DNA of 45,370 bases from a virus. Position 1 is the stretch's first letter, and each line of letters begins with the position of its first letter. This document shows, piece by piece, positions 3,541 to 45,370 of the stretch. The notes under the pieces were generated by a model. The model did not search any database. It saw only the letters and a list, made by a program, of their open reading frames with translations, and had not been told where the DNA came from. The position numbers and the translations under genes are program-made. Location of the stretch: IMG/VR virus record IMGVR_UViG_3300044641_010242, positions 1-45,370 of that record, one strand, 5' to 3'.

Positions 3541-3600
3541 AGATCTATTTAGCAATAGGATGATTGGCACTAAAAATGAAATTAATTTAGGAGTATATAT

Positions 3601-3858: not shown

Positions 3859-3893
3859 TAATTTGTAATCAAAAAAACAAAAGGAAAACAAGT

Positions 3894-4259: not shown

Positions 4260-4279
4260 TTTGATAAAATCAACAAATT

Positions 4280-6021: not shown

Positions 6022-6061
6022 TATTAAAAGGTGCTCCACAAAACATTTGGAATTAATTAGT

Positions 6062-7493: not shown

Positions 7494-7501
7494 GACTAAA
7501 A

Positions 7502-8961: not shown

Positions 8962-9608
8962 TTGATTGGAAAATACCAATTGGAGATTTGTTTTATTTAA
9001 AGTGTAAGAATGACGGCATACTGGAAAAAATGGGTCAGTTTGAATTTAGTGTAGCATCCAGGTTTATTAAAAATTTCAGAAATGTAATAGATATTGGTGC
9101 CCACATAGGAGAAACAGCATACAGATATTCAAAGTATTTTAAAAGAGTGCATGCTTTTGAACCAGTTTACGGATATGAGTTGAGGCAAAATATAGGAAAT
9201 ATTGAAAATATTGACATATATGATTTTGCGGTGTCTGATAAAGAAGAAGAAAAAATTATGATAAGAAGTAATAAAAATTCTGGTGCAACTGTAATAAAAA
9301 CAAAACAAAATTCTAAAGAACTTTCTTCATCAAGGTTTTCAAAAGAAAAAATTAACGTAAAATGTGTACCAATAGACAAATTTAAATTTAAGAATATAGA
9401 TTTTATAAAAATAGACACAGAAGGATATGTATTACCAGTAATTCAGGGTATGAAAAACACACTAAAAAATAGCAATTTTTTAGTGATGCAAATAGAGATG
9501 AATCACATGACTCATAACAAACAAGAATGTATAGATTATTTGAAAGATTTAAATTTCATTCAATTTGATAAAACAGATGTAGATTACTACTTTTCAAAAT
9601 CTACTTGA
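8949..9608 (+). CDS. FkbM-family SAM-dependent methyltransferase
   Basis: The 219-residue protein has RNVIDIGAHIGETAYRYSKY (residues 44-63) as SAM motif I, VHAFEPVYGYELR as motif II, VSDKEEEKIM, and then IDFIKIDTEGYVLPVIQGM with the D-x-E-G-x-E-like element characteristic of FkbM enzymes. These usually methylate sugar hydroxyls or other small molecules. The gene overlaps a GT-A-like gene, so a capping role on a glycan is plausible. ATG 8949 is used here; ATG 8958 is an alternative. Its end overlaps the convergent gene by 8 nt. Confidence 0.83.
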   Translation: MENMIDWKIPIGDLFYLKCKNDGILEKMGQFEFSVASRFIKNFRNVIDIGAHIGETAYRYSKYFKRVHAFEPVYGYELRQNIGNIENIDIYDFAVSDKEEEKIMIRSNKNSGATVIKTKQNSKELSSSRFSKEKINVKCVPIDKFKFKNIDFIKIDTEGYVLPVIQGMKNTLKNSNFLVMQIEMNHMTHNKQECIDYLKDLNFIQFDKTDVDYYFSKST

Positions 9609-10290
9609 GGATACTGCCAAGAGATAATACACATCTTTTTATTGCATCTTTTTTTTCTTCTTCTGAAAGTTCTACTCTTATTTTCTGTAAAAAAATCATA
9701 CCTTCTTCCCCCATTAATTCAAGTATAACATGTTCGTAAAAGTTTCTATAGGATCCAGAATACCCATCGTGGATTTTCTTTTCTTCTACCCCAGCTGCTT
9801 TTTCAAGAACACAAAGATCGCTCCACCATTGGTCTGTATCTTTTTTTGAAACAATACTACCATCAATTGTTTTTATTAAATTGCATTGATCTCTTGTGTT
9901 AGGATATATTATTTTTAGTCTTTCATATCTAGGTTTAAATTCTTCTTCTGGAATTATTCCATATATTCTGCAATTATATGGCCTATTTTCATGTATGGTG
10001 CATTTGTTTTCTTTTGATAAAAATATACATGGATTTTCTTGTAATTTAAAAACATATGACATTAGTGCCTTTTCAACAATTAAAAGAAAAGAATCTTTAC
10101 TCCAATTGTTTGTTATAAAATTCCATATTAATTTAAATTCAACCTTAAGAACGTTTGGCTGCTGTTTTGAACAACACCACGAGGCACATCCGCCTTCATT
10201 TTCCGGCTTCATTATCCAATCCATGCAACCTTTTGTTTCAGGTATTTTACTGTACAACAAAGATAATTCTTTAAATAATTTTTCACTCAT
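9601..10290 (-). CDS. YkgJ-type Cys-cluster (zinc/iron-chelating) protein
   Basis: The 229-residue protein has Cys22, CASWCC (residues 35-40), then PCIFLSKENKCTIHENRPYN and CRIYG with Cys88, Cys97 and Cys107, and a further DQC. The pattern C-x(8)-C-x-(I/V)-(H/Y)-x-x-R-P-x-x-C-R is the signature of the YkgJ/CxxCxxCC family, thought to bind zinc or an iron-sulfur cluster. The biochemical role of the family is poorly known; some members are oxygenase or protein-modification partners. It is transcribed against the FkbM gene and overlaps it by 8 nt at the 3' end. Confidence 0.8.
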   Translation of the reverse strand: MSEKLFKELSLLYSKIPETKGCMDWIMKPENEGGCASWCCSKQQPNVLKVEFKLIWNFITNNWSKDSFLLIVEKALMSYVFKLQENPCIFLSKENKCTIHENRPYNCRIYGIIPEEEFKPRYERLKIIYPNTRDQCNLIKTIDGSIVSKKDTDQWWSDLCVLEKAAGVEEKKIHDGYSGSYRNFYEHVILELMGEEGMIFLQKIRVELSEEEKKDAIKRCVLSLGSILK

Positions 10291-10409
10291 ATATAATATT
10301 CGACATTATTAATAAATATTCAATATGGAATCAAAACTATAGAAATGTTATAAAATAAAAATATATACAGTTTTATTGGCTAAACTTTTTTATCGATAAA
10401 TATATACAT
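10291..10409. promoter_or_regulatory. divergent intergenic region, likely two promoters
   Basis: This 119-nt AT-rich gap separates the minus-strand YkgJ-type gene from the plus-strand sulfotransferase-like gene, so promoters for both probably lie here. AATAAATATT-type strings occur at about 10311-10320 and 10397-10405 and resemble the T4-type late -10 TATAAATA, but such strings are common by chance at this base composition. No classic sigma-70 pair could be placed. Confidence 0.35.
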
Positions 10410-11096
10410 ATGTCTTGTCCTTCTGCTTTTATAGTATCTCAAGGAGGTTGTGGCTCTACCGTTTTTTTTGATCAGCTTGGCTATGGATCTAGATGTGAAA
10501 ATGTAAAAAATTGCACATGTGTTAAAAAGCACGTTTTAGCAAATTGTCTAAAAAATGTTACGTTTATAAAAAATACAAAAATATTATATATTTATGGCAA
10601 TCCATATGAACAGCTCTTATCTGTTGCAAGAAGAGGTTTCATACCTCACTTAATATATGAATATGAAAATTCAGACTATTCAAAATATGTAGACACGTTT
10701 AAAAAATCAGTTTTTTTAAAATGGCATGAATTTGTTAATCCAGGCACTAATGAAAGGCAATGTGTAGGAGTGGGTTTGGAAGAAATACTATCAAGATACC
10801 TAGAGGATAGAAATGCGTTTGTGGATTTCAGGCTTCACTATATGTCTTGGAAAAAAGTACCATTAAAAAATGTTTCAATAAGATTTCTAAAATATGATGA
10901 AATACTAAATTCAGGAAAAGAAAAAATCTGCTCTTGGTTTGATAGAGACTTTGATTTTAAATTAAAAAAAAGGAAAGTCAATTATGTGGATTTTAAAAAA
11001 AATCATCCGGAAATTTCTGAAAAAATAGAAGAAAAATACAAATCATGGTTTTCTTTGTATCAAAAAATACCATTGGTTGAAGATTTAATTTGGTAG
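10410..11096 (+). CDS. sulfotransferase-like P-loop protein
   Basis: The 228-residue protein starts MSCPSAFIVSQGGCGSTVFF. The strand followed by QGGCGSTVFFDQL corresponds to the 5'-phosphosulfate-binding loop of PAPS-dependent sulfotransferases (usually GxxGSTWL). Later elements also fit: KILYIYGNPYEQLLSVARR resembles the 3'-phosphate-binding strand-helix (often RDPxxxxxSxxRR), and SIRFLKYDEIL is the usual late strand (V-x-Y-E-D-L). If active it would sulfate a glycan or other acceptor using host PAPS. The location in the glycan-modifying region supports this. The canonical Arg of RDP is replaced (GNP), so activity is uncertain. Confidence 0.65.
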   Translation: MSCPSAFIVSQGGCGSTVFFDQLGYGSRCENVKNCTCVKKHVLANCLKNVTFIKNTKILYIYGNPYEQLLSVARRGFIPHLIYEYENSDYSKYVDTFKKSVFLKWHEFVNPGTNERQCVGVGLEEILSRYLEDRNAFVDFRLHYMSWKKVPLKNVSIRFLKYDEILNSGKEKICSWFDRDFDFKLKKRKVNYVDFKKNHPEISEKIEEKYKSWFSLYQKIPLVEDLIW

Positions 11097-11202
11097 TCAT
11101 ATTAAAAATAAATCTACTTAAGAATAAACAAGGAAAGGTTTGGTAGTAATTGCAGGGTAATAAATATCAAATGTACATATAATAAAAAAAGGAAATTTTA
11201 AA

Positions 11203-11718
11203 ATGAAAAATTGGTTTTTAAAATCAGCGGAATCTGGAGACGAAAAGTTCAAGTCATTTATTGCAAATGCTCAATTTAAGCCAACAAAAAAGAAATCTCT
11301 TAATTATAGTTTTTATAAAATAATTAATGGAGATGTGGGGAAAATGCCTGCTTTGAGCTATGGCGTAAACGATAAAGATCAAAATTCAATAACCACTATA
11401 ACTTCAGATGGCGAAACAGAGACTACAAATGTAGCCAAAAACGGAGACATTATAGTGTGTGGTCCGATGAACGAAAAATATGTAATAAAACAAGAAAAAT
11501 TTAAAAAGAATTATTCTGGAGAAATTGGTGGAGTTGTTTCTCCTGAGCAGTCTACTAGAATGGCTGCACAATATGATGGAGAAGAGGAGATATTCTTTAC
11601 TGCTCCTTGGGGAGAAAAAATGAGACTCAAACCAGGGGACTATGTAATAAAAATAGATGAAAAAGATGCATATAGAGTTGCAAAAAAAGAATTTGAATTA
11701 ACTTATAATGCTATTTAG
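11203..11718 (+). CDS. phage protein with two PGDY-type modules and MKNWF tag
   Basis: The 171-residue protein opens MKNWFLKSAESGDEKF, a variant of the recurring NW tag. It contains two copies of a small beta module: KNGDIIVCGPMNEKYVIKQE (then KFKKNY) near residues 83-110 and KPGDYVIKIDEKDAYRVAKK (then EFELTY) near 145-168. The pattern (P/N)GD-(Y/I)-(V/I)-...-Y-x-(I/V)-x-x-x-x-F-x-x-x-Y is one I recognise from many phage proteins, where it reads like PGDWxVTGxxGExYPxKPDxFxxTY. No function is established. AAAGGAAA precedes the ATG. Tandem copies in one short protein are noteworthy. Confidence 0.65.
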   Translation: MKNWFLKSAESGDEKFKSFIANAQFKPTKKKSLNYSFYKIINGDVGKMPALSYGVNDKDQNSITTITSDGETETTNVAKNGDIIVCGPMNEKYVIKQEKFKKNYSGEIGGVVSPEQSTRMAAQYDGEEEIFFTAPWGEKMRLKPGDYVIKIDEKDAYRVAKKEFELTYNAI

Positions 11719-11786
11719 ATAAAATAATATCATTATTGTTTTTAGCAGTATTGTTTGTATAAAATATATGGCATTAAAAAACTATT

Positions 11787-12407
11787 ATGTTTAATCTTCA
11801 AAAATTTTCATCAAATAAAATACCAGCAACAAAAGCACGTGTTTTAGTTGATAAGGTAAGAGAAAAATACGCGACCAGAATAATAAAAGATGGTAAAATA
11901 AACAAAAACATATATCTAGATTTAAATAAAAAAAATCTATATGTTATATCCGAAATTAATAATATGTTTAGCTCATCTGAATATAAAGAGCTAAACATAC
12001 TCAATTTTTTACTAAAGTCTTCGGTGCCAATTCAAAATATTCCAATTGGTCTAGTATCTGGATATTTATTTTATAATCCCATGACTGTTTTGGAAGCGAT
12101 AGGTAATGCATACTCTTATAAGAATTTTAGAAATCCAAATAATTTTAGTAATCCATTTCAATCAAATACTGAAACAAAAAATAAAAATGACTTTAAAAAT
12201 ATACTAGAATCTATTCCAGTAGAATGGATTAATTTTTCACTAAAGAGTACAAATGTGTCAGACATTATAAAAGTTATGTGCGAAATAAATTATGACTTTG
12301 CAAAAATAAATAAAGATGCGATTAAATCATTAAAATCAAATAAAAATATTGATGCTATGATTGGGATGTGTCCTAATCTAAAAACTTTTTTAGGCATCAA
12401 AAGATAG
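11787..12407 (+). CDS. hypothetical 206-aa protein
   Basis: Not recognised. It begins MFNLQKFSSNKIPATKARVL, is Lys- and Asn-rich (about the first 60 residues basic), has no membrane segment and is predicted mostly helical. The final MIGMCPNLKTFLGIKR is a hydrophobic end. It lies between a tagged protein and a minus-strand membrane protein. The long frame, sharing the A/T-rich codon use of its neighbours, supports it as a gene. Confidence 0.6.
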   Translation: MFNLQKFSSNKIPATKARVLVDKVREKYATRIIKDGKINKNIYLDLNKKNLYVISEINNMFSSSEYKELNILNFLLKSSVPIQNIPIGLVSGYLFYNPMTVLEAIGNAYSYKNFRNPNNFSNPFQSNTETKNKNDFKNILESIPVEWINFSLKSTNVSDIIKVMCEINYDFAKINKDAIKSLKSNKNIDAMIGMCPNLKTFLGIKR

Positions 12408-12458
12408 TTTTAAAAAACGGAGGTATAAAACACTCAATATGGTTTTGGAGTGAAGGGT

Positions 12459-12719
12459 TTATCTTCTTTTTCTTTTACTACATTCATGCTGTGGTATCAA
12501 GAAAATAGGAAAAAAAGATATTAACATAAATAGTACCATCCCCATAAAACTAGAAATCTGTTTTTCTAGCATTATAGTGTTTTCCATTATGCTAATAAAT
12601 ATTGATGATACAGGTAGAGCAGGAATCATAAAAACAGCACAACACAGCCATGGTATAAAATTATTGCAAGCAATCTTACTAAGATTTTCTAAAATGGTCT
12701 TTATTTTATTATAATTCAT
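12459..12719 (-). CDS. small two-helix membrane protein, holin-like in shape
   Basis: The 86-residue protein has two hydrophobic segments, FIPWLCCAVFMIPALPVSSI (about residues 22-41) and MGMVLFMLISFFPIFLI (about 59-75), separated by a short polar loop, and ends with a basic tail SKRKRR. A good ribosome site (CGGAGATAAT) sits just before the ATG on the minus strand. Two transmembrane helices with a basic C-terminus is the shape of class II holins, but no endolysin is adjacent, so this is only a possibility. Other small phage membrane proteins look alike. Confidence 0.62.
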   Translation of the reverse strand: MNYNKIKTILENLSKIACNNFIPWLCCAVFMIPALPVSSIFISIMENTIMLEKQISSFMGMVLFMLISFFPIFLIPQHECSKRKRR

Positions 12720-12795
12720 AATTATCTCCGTTATATATAATTATTATGTTAATATAAAAATAACCTTCTTAAAGTACGATATAAAACAATTGCTC

Positions 12796-13530
12796 ATGAA
12801 ATATCTAGTTTATACTGTATCTGATTTTAGCGACTATGCAGAAGCATGCATAAAATATCTCTATGATAGTATAATATACAATAATAATAGATCAAATTTT
12901 GATTTTTGTGTTGTTTCAAATAAAAATTTAAAATCTAATTTTGATATAATTTTTGATGAAAATGATAGCAACTATATAGGATGGTCAAAATATACAAAAA
13001 AACTCCCAGAAGGATACGATGGGTATCTTTATTTAGATAGTGATATATTATTTAATGAAAAAATTGAAAACATGTTTGGTGAGCATGACAATTCAGTTGT
13101 ATGCGAAAGTCACAGTATGTTGTCTCCATGGTTTATGTTTGCTCTGTGCACTGAAGAAGAAAAAAAAGAGATGTCAAAAATAAATGGGTTTAATGCTGGA
13201 ACTTTTTCATTTAAGAAAAAAGAAGTTTTGATGGATATTAATACTGTATGCGATAAAATAAAAAACAAAAATTTAAATACAATACAGCAGGCGTGCACAG
13301 AGCAAACATGCTTCAATTATTGGGTTTTTAATTGCCTTAAGAAAAAAATGATTTTTAATAATTTAACAAAAATGGTTCAGTTGCATGTTACTGAAAGACA
13401 ATACGAGAAAAGTATTTTTCATTTTTGCGGATTTACAGGTAACATGAAAGACAAATACGAAAGAATGGAAAAATTCATAGAAAGGTACGGTAAAAATGGA
13501 TCGAGACAAGATGATATCGTTGCTGCCTAA
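12796..13530 (+). CDS. GT-A-like glycosyltransferase with DSD motif
   Basis: The ATG at 12796 is taken as the start; an in-frame TTG at 12790 adds only two residues. The 244-residue protein has DGYLYLDSDILFNEKIENMF, with D-S-D at about residues 81-83, the metal site of GT-A transferases. The N-terminus MKYLVYTVSDFSDYAE and a later NGFNAGTFSFKKKEVL (the N-x-G-x-x-x-F element after the motif) match the GT8-like layout. It overlaps the methyltransferase at 13496 by 35 nt, so the pair are coupled. This is the fourth GT-A-like gene in the window. Confidence 0.75.
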   Translation: MKYLVYTVSDFSDYAEACIKYLYDSIIYNNNRSNFDFCVVSNKNLKSNFDIIFDENDSNYIGWSKYTKKLPEGYDGYLYLDSDILFNEKIENMFGEHDNSVVCESHSMLSPWFMFALCTEEEKKEMSKINGFNAGTFSFKKKEVLMDINTVCDKIKNKNLNTIQQACTEQTCFNYWVFNCLKKKMIFNNLTKMVQLHVTERQYEKSIFHFCGFTGNMKDKYERMEKFIERYGKNGSRQDDIVAA

Positions 13531-16868: not shown

Positions 16869-19850
16869 TTACCTAGATATTTTGTACCAGTTTATATTAA
16901 TATTACGACTTGCTTTTTTCATCTCTTTTCCTATTTGCTCTACCTTTTGTTCTAACTTTTCATCTATTTCTTCAAGTTTCGCCTGAAGTTCATTTTTCCT
17001 TTTGTCATTTTCTGTAATTTCAAATTTTCCTTCTGATATTCTTTCTATTTGTTCTTCATCTAATTTTTGTATTAGTTCCATTATTATGATTTTTTGCTTG
17101 ACTATTTCGTAAATATCCTCATCAGCTGTCCCTTTTGCTATCATGTAATATACATTTACATCGTCTTTGCTGTTAATTCTAAAAAATCTGCCTCGAGCTT
17201 GTTCATCTTTTGCTGGGCTCCAGTCATAATCATTAAATATAACATCTGTAAGTATATTGGGAAGATCTATTCCTGTTCCGCCAGCAGCTATATTTATTAC
17301 AATTGCGAAATATTCACTATTTTGAGACTTAAAATCCTGAATTATAATATCTCTTTCTGACTTTTCTTGATTACCTCTGATTTGAGCAACCTTTTTATTC
17401 ATTGGTGCTAATATTTTTGTAAGGCCATCAGTAATAATGTCAGCAGATTCATTAAAAGAAGTGAATATTGCAACTTTTTTGCCTTGATTTATGAAAAGTT
17501 TGGCAAATTCTAGTGTTTTGGGCGCCTTTGCAGAAGCAAGTTCAACCCTAATTGCGCTCTGCTCATTAAGGGAGCTTCTTCCCTTATATGAATTCATGCG
17601 TGCATTTATCTTGGCCACTAGAGCTACCTTGTCTAAATCAACATTTTTTTCTCCAACGGCAATATTAGGAAGATTTTCTTCCATCATTTTTTTAGTTCTT
17701 TGAATATATATTCTTTGAAGTATTAAAATCTGTCTTAACTTGTCTGCATTTGCAAATTTTTCAGATGGATTTTTTGTTTTAGGATCAAAATTTCCCTTAA
17801 ATTTACCATGATCAAGTTTTCCAAGAGGGTGATTTACAGCTCTTAATTGATTGTAAAGATCAACTGGCTTGTTGGCTATTATTGTTGCAGATAGCCCCCA
17901 CACATAAGGTATGTACTGAGTTATATCTTGACAATTAAATGTTGTTTTATTCTTTTTATGATCTCCGTTTGGATCTCTCGATGAGGGAGATCCGTTTTTT
18001 ATAGTATGGCATTCGTCAAGAATACACAGGACTATTTTGCCATCCATTGCCTGTTTTTTAAGGAAGTCAGTAACTTCTTTTGCCCTACTAGAAACAGAAA
18101 GATCATTATATGGAAGTACCTTCCACATGGCAGATACATTGTTGAATGAATTGGAAACTTCATTTTCCGGAAGCCCTATTATTTCTTTTATGTTTTTTGT
18201 GTACTGACTAACAACAGAAGGGAGAGTAAAAACAATACACTTTTTGTTAAACAAAGAACACACTTTCGGATCACTCAAATCCGCATCGAATGGTATATTA
18301 TTCTCTTTCATCAGCCTTAATTGAGCAGCCATTATTGACTGAACAGTTTTGCCGGTACCTGTTTCGTCACCAAGAAGCGCAGATGACCTTGAATATAGGA
18401 ACTGAATACCATGAACCTGGAGATCTTTTAGAGCGAACTGTTCTCCTGTTTTTGTTCTACTTATATTTGATTCAAATTTTTCAAGGACAGATCTGAATTG
18501 GTCTTTATTATCAAACCCATCAACACTTCCTTCTAGTCTTTCCTGTTTTATTACACCCCTAGAAACCAAAGAAGATATGACTCTCTTAAGTTCTGAAGCA
18601 TCAAAGCCCCTGCTTTCACAGCATTGTATAAATCTAGCATAATCGTTTAGTGAACCTCTGGTTGGCCTTTGATATTTGAACCTTCCATCAGCACTTTCGC
18701 TCATGTTAAGATATGTGTGTATGTCTGGATCTTTATTATTTATATCGCTGGTAGAATTTACAAAACAAAATCTTAGGGATTCGTTGAGGAATTTTCTAAA
18801 CTCTTCTGGTTGAGATCTGCTAAGATAAAAAATACTTACAAGCCAGTTATTGTTAGTTTCCGCCGATATGTCCTTGCAGGTTATTGCTATTCTTGAATTA
18901 CCATCTTCTGATATGGTGCTTGAAGAAGAGGCCTGATCAAATGGATTTCGGTCAAAACCAATTCTGTCAGATTGCTCTCCAAGTTGCTTTAGGGTTTCTT
19001 TGGATGGAGAATATAGAATCCAGCATTTTTTGTTTGCATCCCAGGATCTTCTAGACTTAACATTACGTATAACGTTGACCATTTCTGGATTGTACTCAAA
19101 ATATATTTCATAGTTATTACCATCTCTTACTATTTTTATTTTTTTCTTGTCAGTATTTTTGCTTTCAAATACACCTTCTCTTGTATCCGCAGGCTCATTG
19201 GGTATTGTTTGATTACTATTTGTAGTACTGGTATTTTCTATATTATAACCTAGTTCTTTTAACGAGCTAAATACAATACCCTCAACAAGTGGATGTATCT
19301 CAATAATATCAGGTTGGCTTCTTGGGTAAAATAGCTTCCAAGCTTGAATTTTATCACCTGAAAAATAGGGAGAAAAATCCTGTTTATGTTCAGGGGGAAG
19401 AGACATAATCTTTTCAGATATTTCTTTTATAATTTTTCTTATTTTAACTGGATCTAATAATGGTACTATATAGGAATTTCTTCCATAGTTTCCAGGTCCA
19501 ATTTTTCTAATAGATTTTGTTTTTGAAAGCTCATTAATATCTTTAAAATCTGGATTTGTTTCAGAAAACTGATCATTAATTTTACTTTCAATTTGATCTA
19601 AATTCTCATTTTTCAATTGAGTATTTTTGTATCTTTTCAAGATGTACAGTGTTGAATATATTTCATCCCAAGTTAGTGGGTCACTTAGCTGCATCCTATA
19701 TATTGACCTAAGAAGAGGATTGTCGTAGTCAAACTTGTTAAAACCAGCACTGTCATATGTTGTTGGAGCTCCTTTTCCAAACATATTTTTTACAATTTCT
19801 ATTATTTTAGAAACTTCTGCACTGCTGTGTTTTGATTTATTTATAGACAT
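16869..19850 (-). CDS. SNF2-family DNA helicase/translocase, C-terminus INWYK
   Basis: The 993-residue protein has a long N-terminal region (1-475) and SNF2-type helicase motifs: ALLGDETGTGKTVQSI (Walker A, 494-502), CILDECHTIKNG (DECH, 612-615), WGLSATIIAN (motif III, 653-656), VAIFTSFNESADII (about 793), and GGTGIDLPNILTDVIFNDYD then QARGRFFRI (motifs V and VI, 857-891). A segment at about 248-300 (IYFEYNPEMVNVIRNVKSRR, then W and W) resembles HARP/RPA-like annealing-helicase accessory domains. The C-terminus is a Lys/Glu coiled coil ending in INWYKISR. It would remodel protein-DNA complexes by ATP hydrolysis. The tag-like end is unusual. Confidence 0.9.
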   Translation of the reverse strand: MSINKSKHSSAEVSKIIEIVKNMFGKGAPTTYDSAGFNKFDYDNPLLRSIYRMQLSDPLTWDEIYSTLYILKRYKNTQLKNENLDQIESKINDQFSETNPDFKDINELSKTKSIRKIGPGNYGRNSYIVPLLDPVKIRKIIKEISEKIMSLPPEHKQDFSPYFSGDKIQAWKLFYPRSQPDIIEIHPLVEGIVFSSLKELGYNIENTSTTNSNQTIPNEPADTREGVFESKNTDKKKIKIVRDGNNYEIYFEYNPEMVNVIRNVKSRRSWDANKKCWILYSPSKETLKQLGEQSDRIGFDRNPFDQASSSSTISEDGNSRIAITCKDISAETNNNWLVSIFYLSRSQPEEFRKFLNESLRFCFVNSTSDINNKDPDIHTYLNMSESADGRFKYQRPTRGSLNDYARFIQCCESRGFDASELKRVISSLVSRGVIKQERLEGSVDGFDNKDQFRSVLEKFESNISRTKTGEQFALKDLQVHGIQFLYSRSSALLGDETGTGKTVQSIMAAQLRLMKENNIPFDADLSDPKVCSLFNKKCIVFTLPSVVSQYTKNIKEIIGLPENEVSNSFNNVSAMWKVLPYNDLSVSSRAKEVTDFLKKQAMDGKIVLCILDECHTIKNGSPSSRDPNGDHKKNKTTFNCQDITQYIPYVWGLSATIIANKPVDLYNQLRAVNHPLGKLDHGKFKGNFDPKTKNPSEKFANADKLRQILILQRIYIQRTKKMMEENLPNIAVGEKNVDLDKVALVAKINARMNSYKGRSSLNEQSAIRVELASAKAPKTLEFAKLFINQGKKVAIFTSFNESADIITDGLTKILAPMNKKVAQIRGNQEKSERDIIIQDFKSQNSEYFAIVINIAAGGTGIDLPNILTDVIFNDYDWSPAKDEQARGRFFRINSKDDVNVYYMIAKGTADEDIYEIVKQKIIIMELIQKLDEEQIERISEGKFEITENDKRKNELQAKLEEIDEKLEQKVEQIGKEMKKASRNININWYKISR

Positions 19851-19937: not shown

Positions 19938-20261
19938 ATGCAAAATTGTCATTTCTCTATTCATTACTCAATAGACACAGCAAAAGATCCAAATAATTTG
20001 GATGAGTTTTTTATAGACATTAAAATATCAAAAATTGACGTTTTACACGAAAATCACGCTGTTTTTTCCAAAAAAATAAGTATTGGACCATTTTTAAAAA
20101 TAGAACAAGCCTATGAAGAGGGTTCAATAGAAAATTTAATAAAAATAGCTATAGATAAATTTATGAAACCTGAAGAATCTATAGAAATAGTAAAATGCAA
20201 TATGGTTAAAACGATAAAAAATGGATTACACAAATATCTTCATGATGAAGGTCTATTATGA
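19938..20261 (+). CDS. hypothetical 107-aa protein coupled to the 814-aa protein
   Basis: Not recognised. The 107 residues show alternating charged and hydrophobic segments; the central part (EEGSIENLIKIAIDKFMKPE) is predicted helix. The stop overlaps the ATG of the 814-aa gene (ATGAGC), which points to translational coupling and a shared function. No Shine-Dalgarno site close to the ATG is obvious. Confidence 0.58.
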   Translation: MQNCHFSIHYSIDTAKDPNNLDEFFIDIKISKIDVLHENHAVFSKKISIGPFLKIEQAYEEGSIENLIKIAIDKFMKPEESIEIVKCNMVKTIKNGLHKYLHDEGLL

Positions 20262-22702
20262 GCTACATAACTGTAACAAAATCAAGTGAAACTTATGAAA
20301 TTGATGAGTCTTTTGTAGAAAAAGCAAAAGCATGGTTTTTGAGTAATGAAAAAAAACTTCCAAATGTTTTTGGAAAAATTACCATGGGAATATTTGTTGG
20401 TCATGACTCAAGAAGTTATGCGCAAAATATACAAAATGCTCAACAGAACCATGAATGTGATTACATTCGTTCAAAAATAGCAGGACTTAGAAGTCCAATG
20501 AACTCTTTAGGGTGTGATTATAAAATTGGAAATACAAATCCTTACTTTTTTGCTCCATTTGTGATAGAAGGCGGCGGTGCTGCATCTTTTGATCAATTAG
20601 ATCAGGGTTTATATAGTCTTTTATGTAATAGTGGAAATTTTAGAAGAGTTTCATCTGGAGATATACAAAGTCACATTCTTTATACTGTTCAAATTAATGA
20701 AAATATAGGAATGATATCATATAATAAACCCCCAAAAAGCAATACATTTAGATTTGAAGGAGTGCCTACAAACTTACCATTTATAGCGCAGGCAAATAGA
20801 AAGGAATGCATAAAAATGAAAAAAATTGCCATATCTGAAGATTTATACAGATCAACAGGTCCAGAAATAGCAGGTGGAGCTGAAAGAACAGATAAAAATC
20901 AAAGAACCGGAAAAGAAAAAACATTACACATTCCGGGAATTGCTATGCTTTTTAGCAAAACAATCAGGGATCTTCCTCAAAAAGTGATAAATCCAATACT
21001 CGATAGATTCAATGAAAAAATGAAAGAAGCAGGAATTACATCAGTTGAGGCTCTTGATATGCCCCTGATAGCTTTTCTTGGTAAAGACGATGTATGGAAT
21101 CTAGATGGAAGGGCAATTGTACCTCTAGAAATAGAAAAGAAGTCAAAAAAGGGCATTCAAGAGATAGAAATAACATATTTGGACCTTTCTACTATGCAAG
21201 TTGAAAAAAATGAAAGCCAAGAAATAAAAGATAGAGTTGAAAGAGTAATAATTGAACGTCAAGAAATGAAAAAATTAAGGATTAATGCTTTAATAAAGGA
21301 TAGAAATTCTTTCATAGAAAAATTGAAAACTTCTTTTGGAACTTCAGTTGGAGGATTTACTTCAATTATTTTCATGATGAATAAACTTGATTCTTTGTTG
21401 AATGCTAGAGCTTCTACGTTAAAAATGCAGATAGCATCAATGACAAAAAAATCAAAGAGTTTTGAACAAAATCCTTTGCTTATGCAAATGGAAGAGAAAT
21501 CTGAAGAGGAAATGTCAAAACCATTTGGAGAGTCTGCTTTTTATTCACATCCGGTGGACTACTTAAAGTCAATACTAAGAGACATGCATTATAAGGGCAA
21601 GCTAGAACAGATAATGCAAATGCTTGAAAGCGGAGAGCTTCAAAGAAAGTATAATCCAGAAAACGATCCAAGACTCAATGCTGTATTTACGGCTCTTATA
21701 GAATTCGGAAGACAATTAAGAGAAAGAAAAGAAGAAAAGAAAAGAAAAGAAGACGAGTCAAAACAGGAAAGACAAGAAAGATTTGACGTAGGGGCTTTGG
21801 AACTTCCGGTATTAAAAGAAATACAGAGGATAGAAGAAATGAATATTTCAGATATGCCAATTGAAACATCTGGTATATCTCCAGAATTGTATAAATCAGA
21901 AGGATCAAGAATGGTTGCGCCATCAAGAGCAATCGAATATATAAGAATAAATCTTAGAGAAGTAGAAATAACAAAAGATAGACTTGCTGGAATAAGAATG
22001 ATACTTTTAAGATTGAATGAAGACAAAAATATGAATGCACGATACTTTAGAACTCCTAATGGGCAAAGAGATATACAAAAGATAAAATCTTTGTTTACTC
22101 AGCTTTATGGATTTGTAACAAAATATGTAAATTCAATGTACAAAGACGGAAAATTAGACAAAGCAAAAATAGGATCTTCGGCAGATCCCATTGCAAATCT
22201 AAATATATCTGAATATCTTTTGCTTTTAAACACAAAAGTAGGAGAGTATATAAAATACATAAATGAAAACTATGAAAATAGAACTGCTTCAGGTTCATAC
22301 ACAACGAAATTTGCTCAGGATGCTGGAGCTTCTGCTCCTCCGCCTGCTCCTCCTGCTGCAGGAGGAATACCAGGTCTACCAGGCATGGGTGGTCCACCAG
22401 CAGGTTCAAAAGCAGGAGATATTAGAAGTCCTGATGAATCAAAAATAAATAATGAATATCATGACGATGAAGAAGAACTAGAAGAATTAAGAGATAGTTT
22501 TGATAGCGCATATAAGTCTGGTCATTCAATAGAGGATTCTGTAATACTTGCGATACAGGGATCTGGTTCCAGAAGAGCTCCTGGTCAAATAGATGTGGCA
22601 ATAGTACCAGATCCTGAATATCCAGATATGGAAGCTCCTTTTATTAGAGGAGTTTTTGGAGTTGATCTTGGACCAGTTCAAACAGAACAAGCGCAAAAAT
22701 AA
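20258..22702 (+). CDS. large 814-aa protein, probably virion or morphogenesis
   Basis: Not assigned to a family. The first 240 residues look globular (VGHDSRSYAQNIQNAQQNHE, then FFAPFVIEGGGAASFDQLDQ). Residues about 330-530 are long charged helices, including RERKEEKKRKEDESKQERQE, consistent with a coiled coil. Residues about 690-710 are a Pro/Ala/Gly linker (SAPPPAPPAAGGIPGLPGMG), followed by an acidic region and a short C-terminal domain. A globular head, coiled stalk and linker with a terminal domain fit a structural or scaffold protein. It is co-transcribed with the gene at 19938 and followed by the superoxide dismutase after 7 nt. Confidence 0.6.
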   Translation: MSYITVTKSSETYEIDESFVEKAKAWFLSNEKKLPNVFGKITMGIFVGHDSRSYAQNIQNAQQNHECDYIRSKIAGLRSPMNSLGCDYKIGNTNPYFFAPFVIEGGGAASFDQLDQGLYSLLCNSGNFRRVSSGDIQSHILYTVQINENIGMISYNKPPKSNTFRFEGVPTNLPFIAQANRKECIKMKKIAISEDLYRSTGPEIAGGAERTDKNQRTGKEKTLHIPGIAMLFSKTIRDLPQKVINPILDRFNEKMKEAGITSVEALDMPLIAFLGKDDVWNLDGRAIVPLEIEKKSKKGIQEIEITYLDLSTMQVEKNESQEIKDRVERVIIERQEMKKLRINALIKDRNSFIEKLKTSFGTSVGGFTSIIFMMNKLDSLLNARASTLKMQIASMTKKSKSFEQNPLLMQMEEKSEEEMSKPFGESAFYSHPVDYLKSILRDMHYKGKLEQIMQMLESGELQRKYNPENDPRLNAVFTALIEFGRQLRERKEEKKRKEDESKQERQERFDVGALELPVLKEIQRIEEMNISDMPIETSGISPELYKSEGSRMVAPSRAIEYIRINLREVEITKDRLAGIRMILLRLNEDKNMNARYFRTPNGQRDIQKIKSLFTQLYGFVTKYVNSMYKDGKLDKAKIGSSADPIANLNISEYLLLLNTKVGEYIKYINENYENRTASGSYTTKFAQDAGASAPPPAPPAAGGIPGLPGMGGPPAGSKAGDIRSPDESKINNEYHDDEEELEELRDSFDSAYKSGHSIEDSVILAIQGSGSRRAPGQIDVAIVPDPEYPDMEAPFIRGVFGVDLGPVQTEQAQK

Positions 22703-22709
22703 TAATAAA

Positions 22710-23348
22710 ATGTCAGAATATAGATTTGAATTTAAAAATATACCGCACGGTTTTAATGATTTAACTGATCTTTTTTCAGAAGATGCAGTGAAACTTCATC
22801 ATTTAAAACACGAATATGGATATTTTACTAAATTGCAAAGTCTAGTTGGAAAAAATGTCATATTTAAAAAAAGTTCACTTGAAGAAATTATTAGATATTT
22901 TAATCAGAATAAAAATGATGAGGAAAATATTGATATAAAAAACAATGCTTGCGGTTTATATAATCATCAAATATGGTGGAAAATGCTTACTCCAAAAAAT
23001 AAGTACAAAAAACCAAATTCAGACATTAAATCTATAATAGAAAAAAACTTTAATTCATTTGAGGAGTTCGAAGATAATTTCAAAAACTTGTCAAAGAATC
23101 TATTTGGTTCTGGATGGGTTTGGCTATTATGCAAAAATGGCAAATTATCTTTGGCTTCATGTCAAAATCAAAATAATCCAATTTCTGAAGGACTAGGATA
23201 TCCATTATTGGGAATAGATGTATGGGAGCATGCATTTTACGTAGACTATTTAAACAGAAAAAAAGATTATGTAAACAAATTTTTAAATTATGTTAATTGG
23301 GACGAAATAACAAATAGATATTTTGAATCAGAAAAAAGTGCTTTATGA
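22710..23348 (+). CDS. Fe/Mn-family superoxide dismutase
   Basis: The ATG at 22710 gives 212 residues, normal for the family; an upstream in-frame start at 22656 would overlap the previous gene. All four metal ligands are present: H30 in LHHLKHEY, H86 in GLYNHQIWW, and D170 and H174 in GIDVWEHAFY. The gateway tyrosine (Y38) and C-terminal helix NRKKDYVNKFLNYVNWDEI are also there. Gly82 in NNACGLYNH and Gln154 in NQNNPIS follow the manganese-type pattern (iron enzymes usually have Gln and Ala there), so a Mn-dependent or cambialistic enzyme is likely. It converts superoxide to peroxide and oxygen. It overlaps the next gene by 4 nt. Confidence 0.95.
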   Translation: MSEYRFEFKNIPHGFNDLTDLFSEDAVKLHHLKHEYGYFTKLQSLVGKNVIFKKSSLEEIIRYFNQNKNDEENIDIKNNACGLYNHQIWWKMLTPKNKYKKPNSDIKSIIEKNFNSFEEFEDNFKNLSKNLFGSGWVWLLCKNGKLSLASCQNQNNPISEGLGYPLLGIDVWEHAFYVDYLNRKKDYVNKFLNYVNWDEITNRYFESEKSAL

Positions 23349-23614
23349 ATTGGTACAAACAACAATTAAATAAAATTGCAGATGAATGTTTCTCAATAAA
23401 TATACCTTCAAGTGCAAGGATAAAAAAAGATATTGATTCAATCTTAGAAACTGAAATTTCTATCAAGGTTGCATCTAAAATAAGGGCAATTGTAAAAACT
23501 GCCTCAAATTCCAAAAAGAGAAAAGAAAAACACATATCTAAAATTGACGATTTTATCGATCCGTCAATAAAGGATCAAGTTAAAGGAATTGTAAGGTCTT
23601 ACCTTGGCCTTTAA
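23345..23614 (+). CDS. hypothetical 89-aa protein with MNWYK tag
   Basis: It begins MNWYKQQLNKIADECFSINI, one of the clearest copies of the recurrent tag. The rest is helical and basic (SNSKKRKEKHISKIDDF). The ATG overlaps the stop codon of the superoxide dismutase gene (ATGA), so the two are coupled and may work in the same compartment, with the tag directing this partner (speculative). It overlaps the convergent minus-strand gene by 4 nt. Not recognised otherwise. Confidence 0.65.
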   Translation: MNWYKQQLNKIADECFSINIPSSARIKKDIDSILETEISIKVASKIRAIVKTASNSKKRKEKHISKIDDFIDPSIKDQVKGIVRSYLGL

Positions 23615-25691: not shown

Positions 25692-25738
25692 GTAGCTACT
25701 TTCTTTTTAAACCGACAAAAACCTACTTGGAGAAAAAT

Positions 25739-26446
25739 ATGAATGATTATGAAAAAATAGATGTTCTTGATCATGGATTTGTAAGAGCAATTGAAATAAT
25801 GGGAACCGATCTTACGGTTGTAAATGCTGCCAGAGTTTCATTCCATAAGGAAAGTGAATGGGAGCATCCAGACAGTCACGTTCCTGCTAATATTCTTTCC
25901 GAAAAGGACAAAAAATTAATTAAGTATCTTGCAGTACATAAACACTGGACTCCATTCGCACATCCACAGATTATGTTGCACATTAAGGCTCCGGTGTCAA
26001 TTAGAACCCAGCTTTTTAAGCACAAGGTGGGTTTTGTTGAGAATGAAATTTCTCGTCGCTATGTAACCGAAGAACCAGAAATTTACATCCCAAAATGGCG
26101 TTCTAAACCAACGAATGGAGCAAAACAGGGGTCAGAAGACTTTATTGTCAGCGAAGACACGGTAGCTGCTGCTGAAGCTATGTATTTCGGGGTGGCTAGT
26201 GATGCTCTAAAGACCTACAACTGGCTAATAGAGGCTGGAGTAGCTCCTGAGCAGGCTCGTTTTGTGTTGCCACAGGGTACATACACCGAATGGTACTGGA
26301 CGGGGTCTCTGGCCGCGTATGCACGTGTTTACAAGCAAAGAATTGATCCCCATGCACAATGGGAAGTTAGGCAGTATGCAGAGGCAATAGGAAAGATAAT
26401 TGCTCCATATTTTGAAGTATCGTGGGAACAGTTGACAAGGTTTTAA
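25739..26446 (+). CDS. thyX: flavin-dependent thymidylate synthase ThyX
   Basis: GGAG (25729-25732) and ATG 25739 define the start; the in-frame TTG at 25727 would overlap the ribosome site. The 235-residue protein shows the ThyX signature region QLFKHKVGFVENEISRRYVT, where the usual R-H-R-x(7)-S has Lys for both Arg. AARVSFHKESEW near the N-terminus and LPQGTYTEWYWTGSLAAYAR near residue 185 match nucleotide- and FAD-binding segments. The enzyme makes dTMP from dUMP using methylene-tetrahydrofolate and FADH2, independent of ThyA. With the dUTPase and RNR genes downstream it completes a dTMP supply. The gene is far GC-richer than its neighbours. Confidence 0.94.
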   Translation: MNDYEKIDVLDHGFVRAIEIMGTDLTVVNAARVSFHKESEWEHPDSHVPANILSEKDKKLIKYLAVHKHWTPFAHPQIMLHIKAPVSIRTQLFKHKVGFVENEISRRYVTEEPEIYIPKWRSKPTNGAKQGSEDFIVSEDTVAAAEAMYFGVASDALKTYNWLIEAGVAPEQARFVLPQGTYTEWYWTGSLAAYARVYKQRIDPHAQWEVRQYAEAIGKIIAPYFEVSWEQLTRF

Positions 26447-27053: not shown

Positions 27054-27860
27054 ATGAATAAAACAAAAACAGAACCAACAACAAAAATTAAATGGCAAAC
27101 CTTTCAGTCAATAAGAGATAAAAATGACTTTAAAGATCCAGAGTTTATAAGACTTAGAAATGAAATAGCTACTGAAAATTTTCATTTGGTAATCAAGCTT
27201 TCTGATTTGATGCATAGAAAACATCCAGAAGTTGACAAAGAAGACCTAAGAAGTTTTGCAAGTCTTGGTCTTCTTGATGCAATAATGAAATTTGATTCTG
27301 GCAAAGACATAAAGTTTGAAACATTTGCAACATATAGACTTTTTGGAAGCATGTATGATGAAATGAGGAAGGCAGATTGGTTGCCTCGTCTTACGAGACA
27401 AAGAATGATGAAGCTGGAAAGACTAAGAGAAAAATTTATTTCTGCCAATGGCATGAAACCAACCAGAGATGAGATAGTATCTTTGGCAGAACCAAAAGAT
27501 AAAGCAGATATAGAAAAGTTTTTAAACGAAAATGGAGAAGTGTGGATATATTCTATGAGCGGGAATACATCCAATAATGACGACAACGAGGTAAATTTTT
27601 ACCATGTTGATAAAAAAGCGGATCCAGAGTCAGATACTGTAAAGGTAGATTTCTTTAATAATTTTATTAGAAAAAATTTCAATGAAGATGAATCAAAGAT
27701 AATATGGCTTGTTTACTATGAAAACAGGACTCTAAAAGACACTGCAAACATACTTGGAATTGCGGAGAGTAGAATATGCCCAATTCATAGCAATATATTA
27801 AAGAAATTGCGTAAGCACTTTCAGGAAAGGCCATCTGATTTAGAAATATTCAAAATATAA
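27054..27860 (+). CDS. sigma-70-family RNA polymerase sigma factor
   Basis: AGAGGAAATT before ATG 27054 sets the start; a longer in-frame extension to 26925 overlaps the membrane-protein gene. The 268-residue protein has region 2 (EDLRSFASLGLLDAIMKFDS, then KFETFATYRLFGSMYDEMRK), region 3 (DWLPRLTRQRMMKLERLREK) and a C-terminal helix-turn-helix region 4 (ENRTLKDTANILGIAESRIC), the FliA/SigB-type organisation with LPR after region 2. It would redirect host RNA polymerase to phage promoters, probably late ones. It is the first of a set that ends with the HNH nuclease. Confidence 0.92.
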   Translation: MNKTKTEPTTKIKWQTFQSIRDKNDFKDPEFIRLRNEIATENFHLVIKLSDLMHRKHPEVDKEDLRSFASLGLLDAIMKFDSGKDIKFETFATYRLFGSMYDEMRKADWLPRLTRQRMMKLERLREKFISANGMKPTRDEIVSLAEPKDKADIEKFLNENGEVWIYSMSGNTSNNDDNEVNFYHVDKKADPESDTVKVDFFNNFIRKNFNEDESKIIWLVYYENRTLKDTANILGIAESRICPIHSNILKKLRKHFQERPSDLEIFKI

Positions 27861-29192: not shown

Positions 29193-31715
29193 ATGTCTAT
29201 ATGCACAGAAAGAGAAAAAACAATGAACAACAATAAGACCTACACCTATCAGGAGGCTCTTGACGCAAGTATTAATTATTTTAATGGCGATGAATTGGCC
29301 GCAAAAGTATTTGTTGATAAATACGCGCTAAGAAATGAAAATATGGATCTTGTTGAATTGACACCAGATCACATGCATAAAAGAATTGCAAAAGAATTTG
29401 CAAGAATAGAAAAGAAAAAATTTAACTCGCCTTTGCCTGAAGATGAAATATATGATTTATTAAAGAATTTTGAAAGAATTGTGCCACAGGGGTCTCCTAT
29501 GTACGGCATTGGCAATAGATATCAATTTATATCACTTAGTAATTGCTATGTTGTTGAATCTCCGCTAGACGCATACGGGTCCATTATGGAGTCCGATGAA
29601 AATTTAGTTCAGATAAGTAAAAGAAGAGGTGGGGTTGGCATAGATATATCTCATTTGAGGCCAACAGGGGCTCCAACAAAAAATGCAGCAAGAACAAGTA
29701 CTGGTGTGGTTTCTTTTGCTGAAAGATATTCTAATTCAATAAGAGAAGTTGGTCAGGCGGGAAGAAGAGGGGCTCTAATGGTAACACTTAATGTGCATCA
29801 TCCAGATATACTTGAATTTGCTAAGGTAAAAAGAGATTTAACAAAAGTTACCGGTGCAAATATATCAATTAGACTAACAGACGAATTTTTAAACGCTGTT
29901 GACAACAATGAGGATTATGAGCAAAGATGGCCAGTTGATTCTTCATCTCCTTCAATATCAAGAAAAGTAAATGCAAGATCAATATGGAATATTATTGTTG
30001 AAAATGCTCACCATATGGCAGAACCAGGACTTTTATTTTGGGATAACATCATAAAAGAAAGCCCATCAGATTGTTACTCTGACTGTGGATACAAAACAAT
30101 AAGTACAAATCCATGTTCAGAGATACCCCTGTCTGCATTTGATAGCTGCAGACTAATGCTTCTTAATGCATTCGGGTATGTAGAAAGTCCATTTACAAAA
30201 AAAGCAAGGTTTAATTTTGAAAAATTCAATAAAGATGCTGAGATTTGTCAAAGATTAATGGATGATCTAGTTGATCTTGAAATAGAATGTATTGAAAGAA
30301 TTATAGAAAAAATATCATCTGATCCAGAACCAAAAGAAACAAAACATAGAGAAATTTCTCTTTGGAAAAAGATAAAAGATGCTGCACTAAATGGAAGAAG
30401 AACTGGCACAGGTGCGACAGCAATAGGAGACGCTCTTGCTGCACTTGGACTTCAATACACAAGTGAAGAGGGCATAAATATGACAGAAGAAATTTATAAA
30501 AATTTAAAACTGTCTGCCTATAGAAGTAGTGTAAAAATGGCAAAAGAAATAGGTTCATTCCCAGTGTGGGATTGGAATAAGGAAAAAGATAACCCATTTT
30601 TAAATCGTATAAAAGATGAAGATTCTGTTCTTTATAATGATATGAAAAAGCATGGCAGAAGGAATATAGCACTTTTAACTACTGCTCCAGCTGGATCTGT
30701 TTCAATATTAACTCAAACTTCTAGTGGAATTGAACCTCAATTTATGATTGATCCATATATAAGAAGAAAAAAGGGAAATCCAGGGGATGTTGGTTTTAGA
30801 TCTGATTTTGTTGATCAGAATGGCGATCATTGGATGGAATTTAAGGTATATCCACCTAAGGTAAAAATGTGGATGGGAATAACTGGAGAAACAGACCTGA
30901 AAAAGAGTCCATGGAGTGGATCTACTGCTCCAGAACTGGATTGGAGAAAGAGAGTTCATCTTCAGTCTGTTGCCCAAAAACATTTAGATCATGCAATCTC
31001 TAGTACTATTAATTTGCCTAATGATGTATCTGTTTCTTCTGTTGATGAAATATACAGAACTGCATGGAAAAGCGGTTGCAAGGGTATAACAATCTATAGA
31101 GATGGTTGTAGAACTGGAGTTCTTGTTTCTGAATCTAAGAAAAATACAGAAGATGAAATACTAATAACAAAAGCACCCAAAAGGCCCGAATCACTTCCAT
31201 GTGATGTTCATCACTGTATAGTAAAAGGTAAGCAGTATTTTGTAATTGTTGGAAAAATGAAAGAAAAACCATATGAAGTTTTTGCAAGCATGAATCATAC
31301 TTCTGATTCAAATAATGATCTTTTAATATCTAAAAGTTTTACATCTGGAACTCTCACTAAAGAATCTAGAGGTCATTACAGAGCTGACTTGAATGATTCA
31401 AATGAAAATTCAATGAAGATCAAAAAGATAGGAGATCGTCTTACTGAAGAAGAATCAGCTTTAACTAGAATAATATCCACAGCTCTAAGACACGGCGCCG
31501 ATGTTCAATTTATTGTTCATCAACTTGAGAAGGTAGAAGGCTCTATGCATGGATTTTCAAAAAGCATAGCGAGAGCTTTAAAGAAATATATACCGGATGG
31601 TGCAGAAGTAAGTGGGGAAACTTGCTCAAACTGCAAAACTCAAGACAAGTGCGCACTGGTTAGACAGGAAGGTTGTATAATGTGTAAGTCTTGTGGATGG
31701 TCAAAATGTGGATAA
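29193..31715 (+). CDS. nrdJ: class II (adenosylcobalamin-dependent) ribonucleoside reductase
   Basis: AAAGGAGATAAC (29181-29192) sets ATG 29193. The 840-residue protein has YQFISLSNCYVVESPL (Cys118), KRRGGVGIDISHLRPTGAPT, and STNPCSEIPLSAFDSCRL with Cys307, Glu309 and Cys318; the 11-residue spacing of Cys307/Cys318 matches NrdJ-type enzymes in which they act as radical and redox Cys. The C-terminus is a zinc-ribbon-like cluster, CSNCKTQDKC then CIMCKSCGWSKCG. It reduces nucleotides to deoxynucleotides with a B12 radical, independent of oxygen. The following dUTPase overlaps the pathway. Length is normal for the B12 family. Confidence 0.95.
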   Translation: MSICTEREKTMNNNKTYTYQEALDASINYFNGDELAAKVFVDKYALRNENMDLVELTPDHMHKRIAKEFARIEKKKFNSPLPEDEIYDLLKNFERIVPQGSPMYGIGNRYQFISLSNCYVVESPLDAYGSIMESDENLVQISKRRGGVGIDISHLRPTGAPTKNAARTSTGVVSFAERYSNSIREVGQAGRRGALMVTLNVHHPDILEFAKVKRDLTKVTGANISIRLTDEFLNAVDNNEDYEQRWPVDSSSPSISRKVNARSIWNIIVENAHHMAEPGLLFWDNIIKESPSDCYSDCGYKTISTNPCSEIPLSAFDSCRLMLLNAFGYVESPFTKKARFNFEKFNKDAEICQRLMDDLVDLEIECIERIIEKISSDPEPKETKHREISLWKKIKDAALNGRRTGTGATAIGDALAALGLQYTSEEGINMTEEIYKNLKLSAYRSSVKMAKEIGSFPVWDWNKEKDNPFLNRIKDEDSVLYNDMKKHGRRNIALLTTAPAGSVSILTQTSSGIEPQFMIDPYIRRKKGNPGDVGFRSDFVDQNGDHWMEFKVYPPKVKMWMGITGETDLKKSPWSGSTAPELDWRKRVHLQSVAQKHLDHAISSTINLPNDVSVSSVDEIYRTAWKSGCKGITIYRDGCRTGVLVSESKKNTEDEILITKAPKRPESLPCDVHHCIVKGKQYFVIVGKMKEKPYEVFASMNHTSDSNNDLLISKSFTSGTLTKESRGHYRADLNDSNENSMKIKKIGDRLTEEESALTRIISTALRHGADVQFIVHQLEKVEGSMHGFSKSIARALKKYIPDGAEVSGETCSNCKTQDKCALVRQEGCIMCKSCGWSKCG

Positions 31716-41450: not shown

Positions 41451-42221
41451 ATGGCAACACCTATTATATCATTTCCAAAGTCTCCTTCTAATAATCAAGA
41501 GATATCAATTGATGGACGCAAGTGGGTTTATAAATTAAGTATACCTGGATGGGTTTGTTCGCAAATAGGATCGGGTGGGGTAGTATTTATTGCTTCAGAA
41601 ACTGCACCATCTGTAAACCTTTATAAGGCAGGAGACAGATGGTTCAACACTTCTACAAGTATTGAATACGTTCTTATAAATGACGGAGATGACAAATATT
41701 GGGTTAATGTTTATACTACTCCGCATAATCATTCTATTTCAAATATAAATGGGTTGCAGACAATATTAAATTTAAAAACTCAGTTTTATTACAGGTCTAC
41801 TCCTCCATCAAATCCAAATGTCGGAGACAGATGGATGGATTCTTCTACTGGGGATGAATATATTTATGTTTATGACGGTAGTGGATACCAGTGGTTGCAG
41901 CCAACAGTAAATCCTTATTTTGGTTCAATAAAAGGTAACACTGTTTCTGTCACATCCTCTTCATATTCTATGATTTCAACTGATTATTATGTTGGCGTTG
42001 ATTATGCCGGTATAGTAACTATAACTCTTCCAGATAGTCCAGACAATGGTAAAATGGTTGTAATAAAAGATGAATCAGGTAATGCTGGTAGTATTTCTAG
42101 ATATATAACAGTTGTTCCATTTGATAATACTGATACAATTGACAATGATTCTTCTGCAATAATAAATATTAACAATGGTGGTGTCGATTTAATTTACAGA
42201 AATGGTTGGAGAATAATATGA
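41451..42221 (+). CDS. fibre protein with two GDRW modules and a beta-rich C-terminus
   Basis: The 256-residue protein opens IISFPKSPSNNQEISIDGRK with W, matching the FPxSPxxGQ opener of the collagen-like gene downstream. Then come two GDRW modules: ETAPSVNLYKAGDRWFNTST and then PPSNPNVGDRWMDSSTGDEY. From about residue 160 it is a beta-rich region (GVDYAGIVTITLPDSPDNGK), a repetitive-strand pattern usual in tail-fibre shafts or tips. Its stop overlaps the next ATG (ATGA). The group looks like an adhesive or structural fibre, with no enzymatic motif. Confidence 0.7.
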   Translation: MATPIISFPKSPSNNQEISIDGRKWVYKLSIPGWVCSQIGSGGVVFIASETAPSVNLYKAGDRWFNTSTSIEYVLINDGDDKYWVNVYTTPHNHSISNINGLQTILNLKTQFYYRSTPPSNPNVGDRWMDSSTGDEYIYVYDGSGYQWLQPTVNPYFGSIKGNTVSVTSSSYSMISTDYYVGVDYAGIVTITLPDSPDNGKMVVIKDESGNAGSISRYITVVPFDNTDTIDNDSSAIININNGGVDLIYRNGWRII

Positions 42222-43423
42222 GTTATTTATTTAATAATAGTATAAAGTATGACAGAAATGCAGTTGACGCATTTAATAGGCTAAAAGTTTCGTCTCCTTT
42301 TACTCTTTTTGAGTCTCAAAATATATATCAAGATAATGGAAAATTTGATACCAGTCTTGCCGGAGGTGCAGTTTCGCAATATCAATCGGATGATTCTGTC
42401 ATGTCACTTAATGTTTATGGCACAACTGGAGATCAGGTCATAAGGCAAAGCTATAGAAATTTTGCTTATCAGCCAGGTAAATCTCTTCTTGTTATAAGCT
42501 CATATGTTTTTTCACCTGCTATTTCTGGACTAAGGCAGAGAGTTGGTTATTTTGATTCTAATAATGGTGTGTACTTGCAACTAAACGATACTTCCCTTAG
42601 TATTGTACTTAGATCATATTCTTCTGGATCTCTGGTAGAGACATCAGTAAATTACAGTTCATGGAACGGTGATCCTTGTGACGGTACAGGAAAATCAGGA
42701 TTTGACATTGATACAACAAAAGCTAATATTTTTTGGGTTGATATTGAATGGCTTGGTGTTGGAAATGTTAGATGTGGATTTTTTCACGATGGTGAGCCTG
42801 TTCTTGCGCATACTTTCAAGAATATAAATTCTGTTTCTACAACCTATATGTCAACAGCATCTCTTCCAGTTCGTTATGAAATTTCTAATACTTCAAATAC
42901 CGGAACATCCTCTAGTATGCTTCAAATATGTTCAACTGTAATTTCCGAGGGTGGTTATGAAATTAATTCTTTTAGGTCTCATATAACAAGAGGTGGAACA
43001 AATGCAAGCTCTCAGACTCTTACAAGCGCTGGAACCTTTTATCCCACTGTAAGTATTAGGCTTAATTCTAATCGTATAAATTCAGTAGTTATTGCTTCTC
43101 AAATAGATATTTTGACTCTTAGTAGTGCCAGTGCAGAATGGAAATTGCTTCTAAATGCAACATTAAGTGGATCTAGTTTTGTCACTCATTCTAATCAACG
43201 AGTTGATTATGATATATCATCAACCAGTTTGTCTTCAGGAACTTCTTTGGCATCTGGTTTTGTATCCTCAAAGAGTTTAATTAGTTTTGGAGGTAGTGAA
43301 AGATGGTCTTACCAACTTGGCAAAACAATTTCCGGAACCTCTGACGTAATAACTCTTGCTGTATCCCCATTTAGCAATGGAGACAAAGTTTCAACTATGA
43401 TGTCATGGGAGGAGATATCTTAA
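42218..43423 (+). CDS. virion fibre or appendage protein
   Basis: The ATG at 42218 overlaps the previous stop (ATGA); an in-frame extension to 42206 is not needed. The 401-residue protein starts MSYLFNNSIKYDRNAVDAFN then RLKVSSPFTLFESQN. The pattern A-F-x-R-L-(R/K)-V-S-x-P-x-T-L-F-x-S-Q is one I recognise from phage virion proteins. Later DGEPVLAHTFKNIN and SLPVRYEISNTSN are beta-rich. It is likely a fibre or collar protein. It carries GGGAGGAG near its end, which serves as ribosome site for the next gene. Confidence 0.75.
   Translation: MSYLFNNSIKYDRNAVDAFNRLKVSSPFTLFESQNIYQDNGKFDTSLAGGAVSQYQSDDSVMSLNVYGTTGDQVIRQSYRNFAYQPGKSLLVISSYVFSPAISGLRQRVGYFDSNNGVYLQLNDTSLSIVLRSYSSGSLVETSVNYSSWNGDPCDGTGKSGFDIDTTKANIFWVDIEWLGVGNVRCGFFHDGEPVLAHTFKNINSVSTTYMSTASLPVRYEISNTSNTGTSSSMLQICSTVISEGGYEINSFRSHITRGGTNASSQTLTSAGTFYPTVSIRLNSNRINSVVIASQIDILTLSSASAEWKLLLNATLSGSSFVTHSNQRVDYDISSTSLSSGTSLASGFVSSKSLISFGGSERWSYQLGKTISGTSDVITLAVSPFSNGDKVSTMMSWEEIS
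43407..43414 (+). promoter_or_regulatory. strong ribosome binding site setting a TTG start
   Basis: GGGAGGAG lies within the last codons of the preceding gene, 9 nt before TTG at 43424, which follows the stop TAA at 43421-43423. There is no ATG in that frame that would keep the N-terminal FPxSP module, so TTG is taken as the start of the collagen-like gene. Confidence 0.75.

Positions 43424-45370
<1,947 letters not shown>

Follow-up and report, generated by a model that had tools for sequence, protein, structure and literature searches.

A predicted Mn-type superoxide dismutase under purifying selection in an uncultured, probably tailed phage

Phage-encoded superoxide dismutases (SODs) and the idea that they serve in ROS defense have been known from lake phages since 2019. 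In a set of over 2000 freshwater phage genomes, more than 10% were reported to carry genes for ROS defense, SODs among them (Kavagutti et al., 2019; PMC6802176). The authors proposed a "phage-mediated ROS defense" that would extend to surviving the oxidative burst inside protist phagosomes (PMC6802176). An Fe/Mn SOD was also named among the virus-borne genes of a Microcystis bloom (PMC12542629). The gene described here is likewise phage-encoded, with a proposed relief of oxidative stress during infection, although both texts list genes without naming the lineage studied here, and the likeness is one of text rather than of tabled sequences. The Cu,Zn SOD of Megavirus chilensis and the SOD homologue of lumpy skin disease virus are virus-borne as well, but both viruses infect eukaryotes and the Megavirus enzyme belongs to the unrelated Cu,Zn family (cited in PMC9405923). 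At the level of the enzyme, comparison is best made with the SodFM1 Mn-SODs of bacteria, such as B. subtilis SodA (2rcv) and that of Anabaena (1gv3). The SodFM1 subfamily, as defined in PMC10172142, is mostly Mn-preferring and dimeric, and a C-terminal Gln together with a Gly two residues before the Asp ligand are indicators of Mn preference whose presence predicts metal use without proving it (PMC10172142; PMC13008324).

The window analyzed here is the whole 45,370-nucleotide stretch of IMG/VR record IMGVR_UViG_3300044641_010242. An open frame at 22710..23348 on the plus strand encodes an Fe/Mn-family SOD of 212 aa with Mn-type (SodFM1-like) residues, as indicated by Pfam, structure match and alignment. 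Both domains of the Fe/Mn SOD family scored above their curated cut-offs (Sod_Fe_C at 2.1e-35, 121.3 bits against 20.9; Sod_Fe_N at 3e-11, 44.1 bits against 27), by which sequence measure the protein is a member of this family. The NCBI Mn-SOD model gave 148 bits and the Fe-SOD model 126 bits, both scores lying below the respective equivalog cut-offs. The B. subtilis MnSOD 2rcv was matched at 2.2e-45, far beyond chance, and the closest solved structures were the bacterial Mn-SODs 2rcv, 1gv3 and 6pro, at approximately 37% identity. The AlphaFold2 model has a confident SOD fold (pLDDT 90.9) and superposes on Mn-SOD crystal structures with TM values of 0.83-0.89 and an rmsd of about 2 Å.

When 30 bacterial and phage SODs were aligned, the metal ligands H30, H86, D170 and H174 and the gateway Y38 were invariant in all 30, as were H34, N85, W136, W138, Q154, W172, E173, Y177 and G82. 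A reading of the sequence alone, made before this analysis, had claimed a complete active site with Gly82 and Gln154 of the Mn type, and the alignment bears this out. Both SodFM1 markers, the water-coordinating C-terminal Gln (Q154) and the Gly at XD-2 (G168), are present. The protein thus shares with the bacterial SodFM1 enzymes the fold, the four metal ligands, the gateway Tyr, the C-terminal Gln and the Gly at XD-2, whereas it lies in a phage genome, is only 32-39% identical to any bacterial SOD found, and deviates at four otherwise near-invariant sites, namely C81 (for Gly), W89 (for Phe), N155 (for Asp) and F176 (for Tyr). N155 was found in one other phage SOD too, and C81, W89 and F176 could change the rate or metal use of the enzyme. 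The gene product is very probably an active SOD, predicted to be of the Mn type.

The sequence-only reading had also taken the gene to be phage-borne, which is upheld by a virion structural protein, a phage hallmark, encoded at 42221..43423 (plus strand; phrog_1645, 7.8e-102) and by a gene row kept in two viral contigs. Beside this hallmark lie genes for a tail-fibre-like protein (41451..42221, plus strand; weak PHROG tail matches, E 2e-4 to 6e-4) and for a collagen-like repeat protein (43424..45370, plus strand; repeats G-A-T / G-P-T), which runs past the window end and gives spurious ORFs on the opposite strand. The best named matches of a 116-aa window protein were in Pelagibacter and other aquatic phages. 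Two more IMG/VR contigs, G001 and G002 (94.7 and 146.7 kb), share the region with about 82% identity to the window in DNA, the values running from roughly 76 to 84%; their SOD is 87% identical to that of the window in amino acids and stands in an identical row of 107 aa, 814 aa, SOD and 89 aa. Because G001 and G002 are 99.97% identical over 84.9 kb, they represent one population, and conservation therefore rests on two lineages. An endolysin-like gene was present in G002. Searches of the window, G001 and G002, all three of which may be fragments, gave no gene for terminase, portal, gp23 or sheath. The phage is uncultured, probably tailed and probably large; that it is a giant phage we infer from the 146.7-kb fragment. 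Within that fragment, positions 57000-98000 (G002:C1; L007-L009) hold many small genes and differ in gene make-up from the AT-rich arms on either side, and the agreement of two metagenome records across this stretch makes a single-sample assembly accident unlikely.

The row containing the SOD gene begins with a 107-aa protein without assigned function (19938..20261, plus strand), whose gene overlaps by 4 nt that of an 814-aa protein directly upstream of the SOD (20258..22702, plus strand), also without assigned function. The latter is 79% identical in G001/G002 and had no match in Pfam and PHROG searches; its structure model was discarded as unusable (pLDDT 36). The SOD start lies 7 nt past the stop of the 814-aa gene, and the SOD stop shares the 4-nt overlap already seen in the sequence-only reading (ATGA at 23345-23348) with the last gene of the row, which encodes an 89-aa MNWYK-tagged protein (23345..23614, plus strand). 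N-terminal tags of the MNWYK/NWFK type are common to unrelated window proteins (1424, 2019, 14752 on the minus strand, and 23345) and occur in about a dozen further G002 proteins; the tag, which the SOD lacks, looks like a sorting or packaging signal. In a promoter scan, sites were no commoner than in shuffled sequence.

A 993-aa SNF2-type helicase, recognized by Pfam, is the divergent neighbor of the row (16869..19850, minus strand). On the other side follow, on the plus strand, a ThyX thymidylate synthase (25727..26446; phrog_85, 1e-61), a sigma-70-like factor (27054..27860; phrog_351, 2.7e-24) and NrdJ, a B12-type ribonucleotide reductase (29193..31715) whose nearest named matches include uncultured phages of 462 and 635 kb; an HNH nuclease, a dUTPase and proteins without assignment are also among the near neighbors. 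The gene had been placed in the middle of a structural/DNA module, a description whose structural part is not borne out; the recognizable virion genes lie about 18 kb off, at 41-45 kb. The huge phages LR745206 and LR756500 were considered as syntenic around NrdJ and rejected, because the matches comprised only NrdJ, dUTPase, an IMPDH-like protein and one methyltransferase. Sugar modification is suggested by several genes at 2641-13530 that resemble those for glycosyltransferases and FkbM methyltransferases.

Purifying selection acts on the SOD gene, for which comparison with the G002 orthologue gave dN 0.071, dS 0.612 and dN/dS 0.12 (neighbors, 0.03-0.18). With this ratio, and with phage genes on both sides in a viral contig, it classes as an auxiliary metabolic gene. 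Its GC3 of 0.18 resembles that of the immediate neighbors (0.17-0.23), in agreement with the equal codon use reported earlier. In a phylogeny of 104 SODs with no chosen SodFM2-5 references, the window SOD and its orthologue sit on a long stem branch (2.58 changes per column) without a supported bacterial sister, and this combination marks the gene as an old resident. The view that it was not captured very recently therefore stands, on branch length and GC3 alike. The best bacterial relative shows 39% identity among the matches listed, and a closer one may exist.

How common such genes are in phages depends on where one looks. That Fe/Mn SODs are unusual in phages, as had been supposed, is true of cultured phages, a search of 50,697 records of named phages having given 15 matches, all below 39% identity and most of them unannotated, but not of IMG/VR, where relatives are encoded on at least 583 contigs. 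The named-phage matches were rejected as true relatives because of their low identity and because the annotated uncultured contig that was examined has the gene content of a bacterium. This record, MW462191.1 (L012), is named "Bacteriophage sp." and reads as a bacterial chromosome fragment, with beta-lactamase, transporter and efflux genes around the SOD.

Among the best 80 of the at least 583 contigs, 74 share, whole or in part, one block in the order tail sheath, two proteins without assignment, SNF2 helicase, SOD protein, head-tail adaptor, small protein and DNA polymerase B (for example L091:2589-15021 and L071:3011-15743). These uncultured T4-type giant phages (L019-L097 except L055, L057, L060, L062 and L074; further loci of the clade are L186-L261) have contigs whose length reaches 297 kb or more. 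Where the contigs were searched and extend far enough, they encode gp23 (about 1e-62), terminase and a T4 portal (E-values down to about 1e-78). A eukaryotic giant virus was rejected as the owner of these contigs given the gp23, T4 portal, sheath and terminase, and an NCLDV capsid search of them, run without a positive control, gave no match. When contigs were instead sought by the adaptor, the SOD preceded it in 72 of the 75 with enough upstream sequence, a share which holds for close relatives of the SOD-bearing contigs from which the query was built. The SOD is almost standard equipment in this clade; the full-text literature covered, from a library that is not complete, yielded no paper that treats it as a core gene of these phages. 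Two further groups of giant phages also carry one, L057/L074 (358 and 316 kb, terminase-bearing) and L055/L060/L062.

Many clade contigs encode the SOD domain as part of a fusion, with additional pieces before or after it. Fusions at L032:9521-11671, L041:9527-10621, L071:9881-11419 and L088:9896-12532 have an N-terminal piece and/or long C-terminal stretches; the N-terminal piece carries an AHEWVHEWQ motif and appears metalloprotease-like by eye, and the C-terminal stretches had no Pfam match where scanned. The window resembles the clade in having an Fe/Mn SOD domain and a nearby SNF2 helicase of the same broad family. However, the clade SODs form a separate clade in the SOD tree, are often fused to extra domains and adjoin the head-tail adaptor, and apart from helicase and SOD no block gene is common to both, the sheath, adaptor Ad2 and PolB profiles being unmatched in the window and G002. 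A shared origin of the two groups of SODs was compatible with the AU test (p = 0.32) but gained no support from it.

The gene is best explained, in our judgment with good though not complete confidence, by a working Mn-preferring SodFM1-like SOD, long kept by an uncultured tailed phage, that dismutates superoxide in the infected cell. The enzyme would probably be translated together with its row (107 aa, 814 aa, SOD and 89 aa) during infection and could act as a dimer in the host cytoplasm, converting superoxide to H2O2 and O2. In this way the enzymes of the phage itself, like the infected cell, would keep working under oxidative stress, for which light-driven ROS, host metabolism and the grazer phagosome are proposed sources. 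Protection against oxidative bursts, as proposed for lake phages, had also been suggested in the sequence-only reading.

The SOD could serve the phage in a few other ways. First, SOD could be part of the lasting core of several giant phage lineages, incorporated in the particle or delivered along with it, instead of an auxiliary gene carried now and then; the window lineage would then be an independent case of this solution. To this view we give a small but real chance. Second, and slightly less likely, the window SOD itself could be packaged in the virion or neck and act at injection, where it would protect phage DNA or neutralize a burst met on entry. The position of the clade gene between SNF2 helicase and head-tail adaptor, close to the tail sheath, and its frequent fusion to further domains point in this direction, as do the NWYK tag on the product of the gene after the window SOD, common to many unrelated proteins of the same phage, and the packaging of SOD by eukaryotic giant viruses (reviewed in PMC9405923). 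However, gene position is no proof, the virion genes of the window are 18 kb off, and the window SOD has neither tag nor extra domain. Third, the fold could have been retained for a non-catalytic, structural or binding task, to which the four substitutions at near-invariant positions, the very long stem branch and the coupling to proteins without assigned function would conform; we consider this improbable, as none of the ligand, gateway and second-sphere residues has been lost and purifying selection acts on the gene. Finally, bacterial chromosome contamination or recent host capture, of which at least one named "phage" record with an SOD (MW462191) gives an example, is highly improbable and is refuted as far as present data go by the phrog_1645 virion gene, the synteny kept in G001/G002, the lack of a close bacterial relative (best 39% identity among the matches listed) and a base composition like that of the neighbors.

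In summary, what is surprising beyond the lake phages is the regularity with which an SOD occurs beside structural genes in one giant phage clade. Its place next to the head-tail adaptor in 72 of 75 clade contigs turns an entry in a gene list into a testable question, namely whether the enzyme helps in the cytoplasm or belongs to the particle. For a phage to retain a Mn-type SOD of its own over long evolutionary times implies that superoxide limits its replication.
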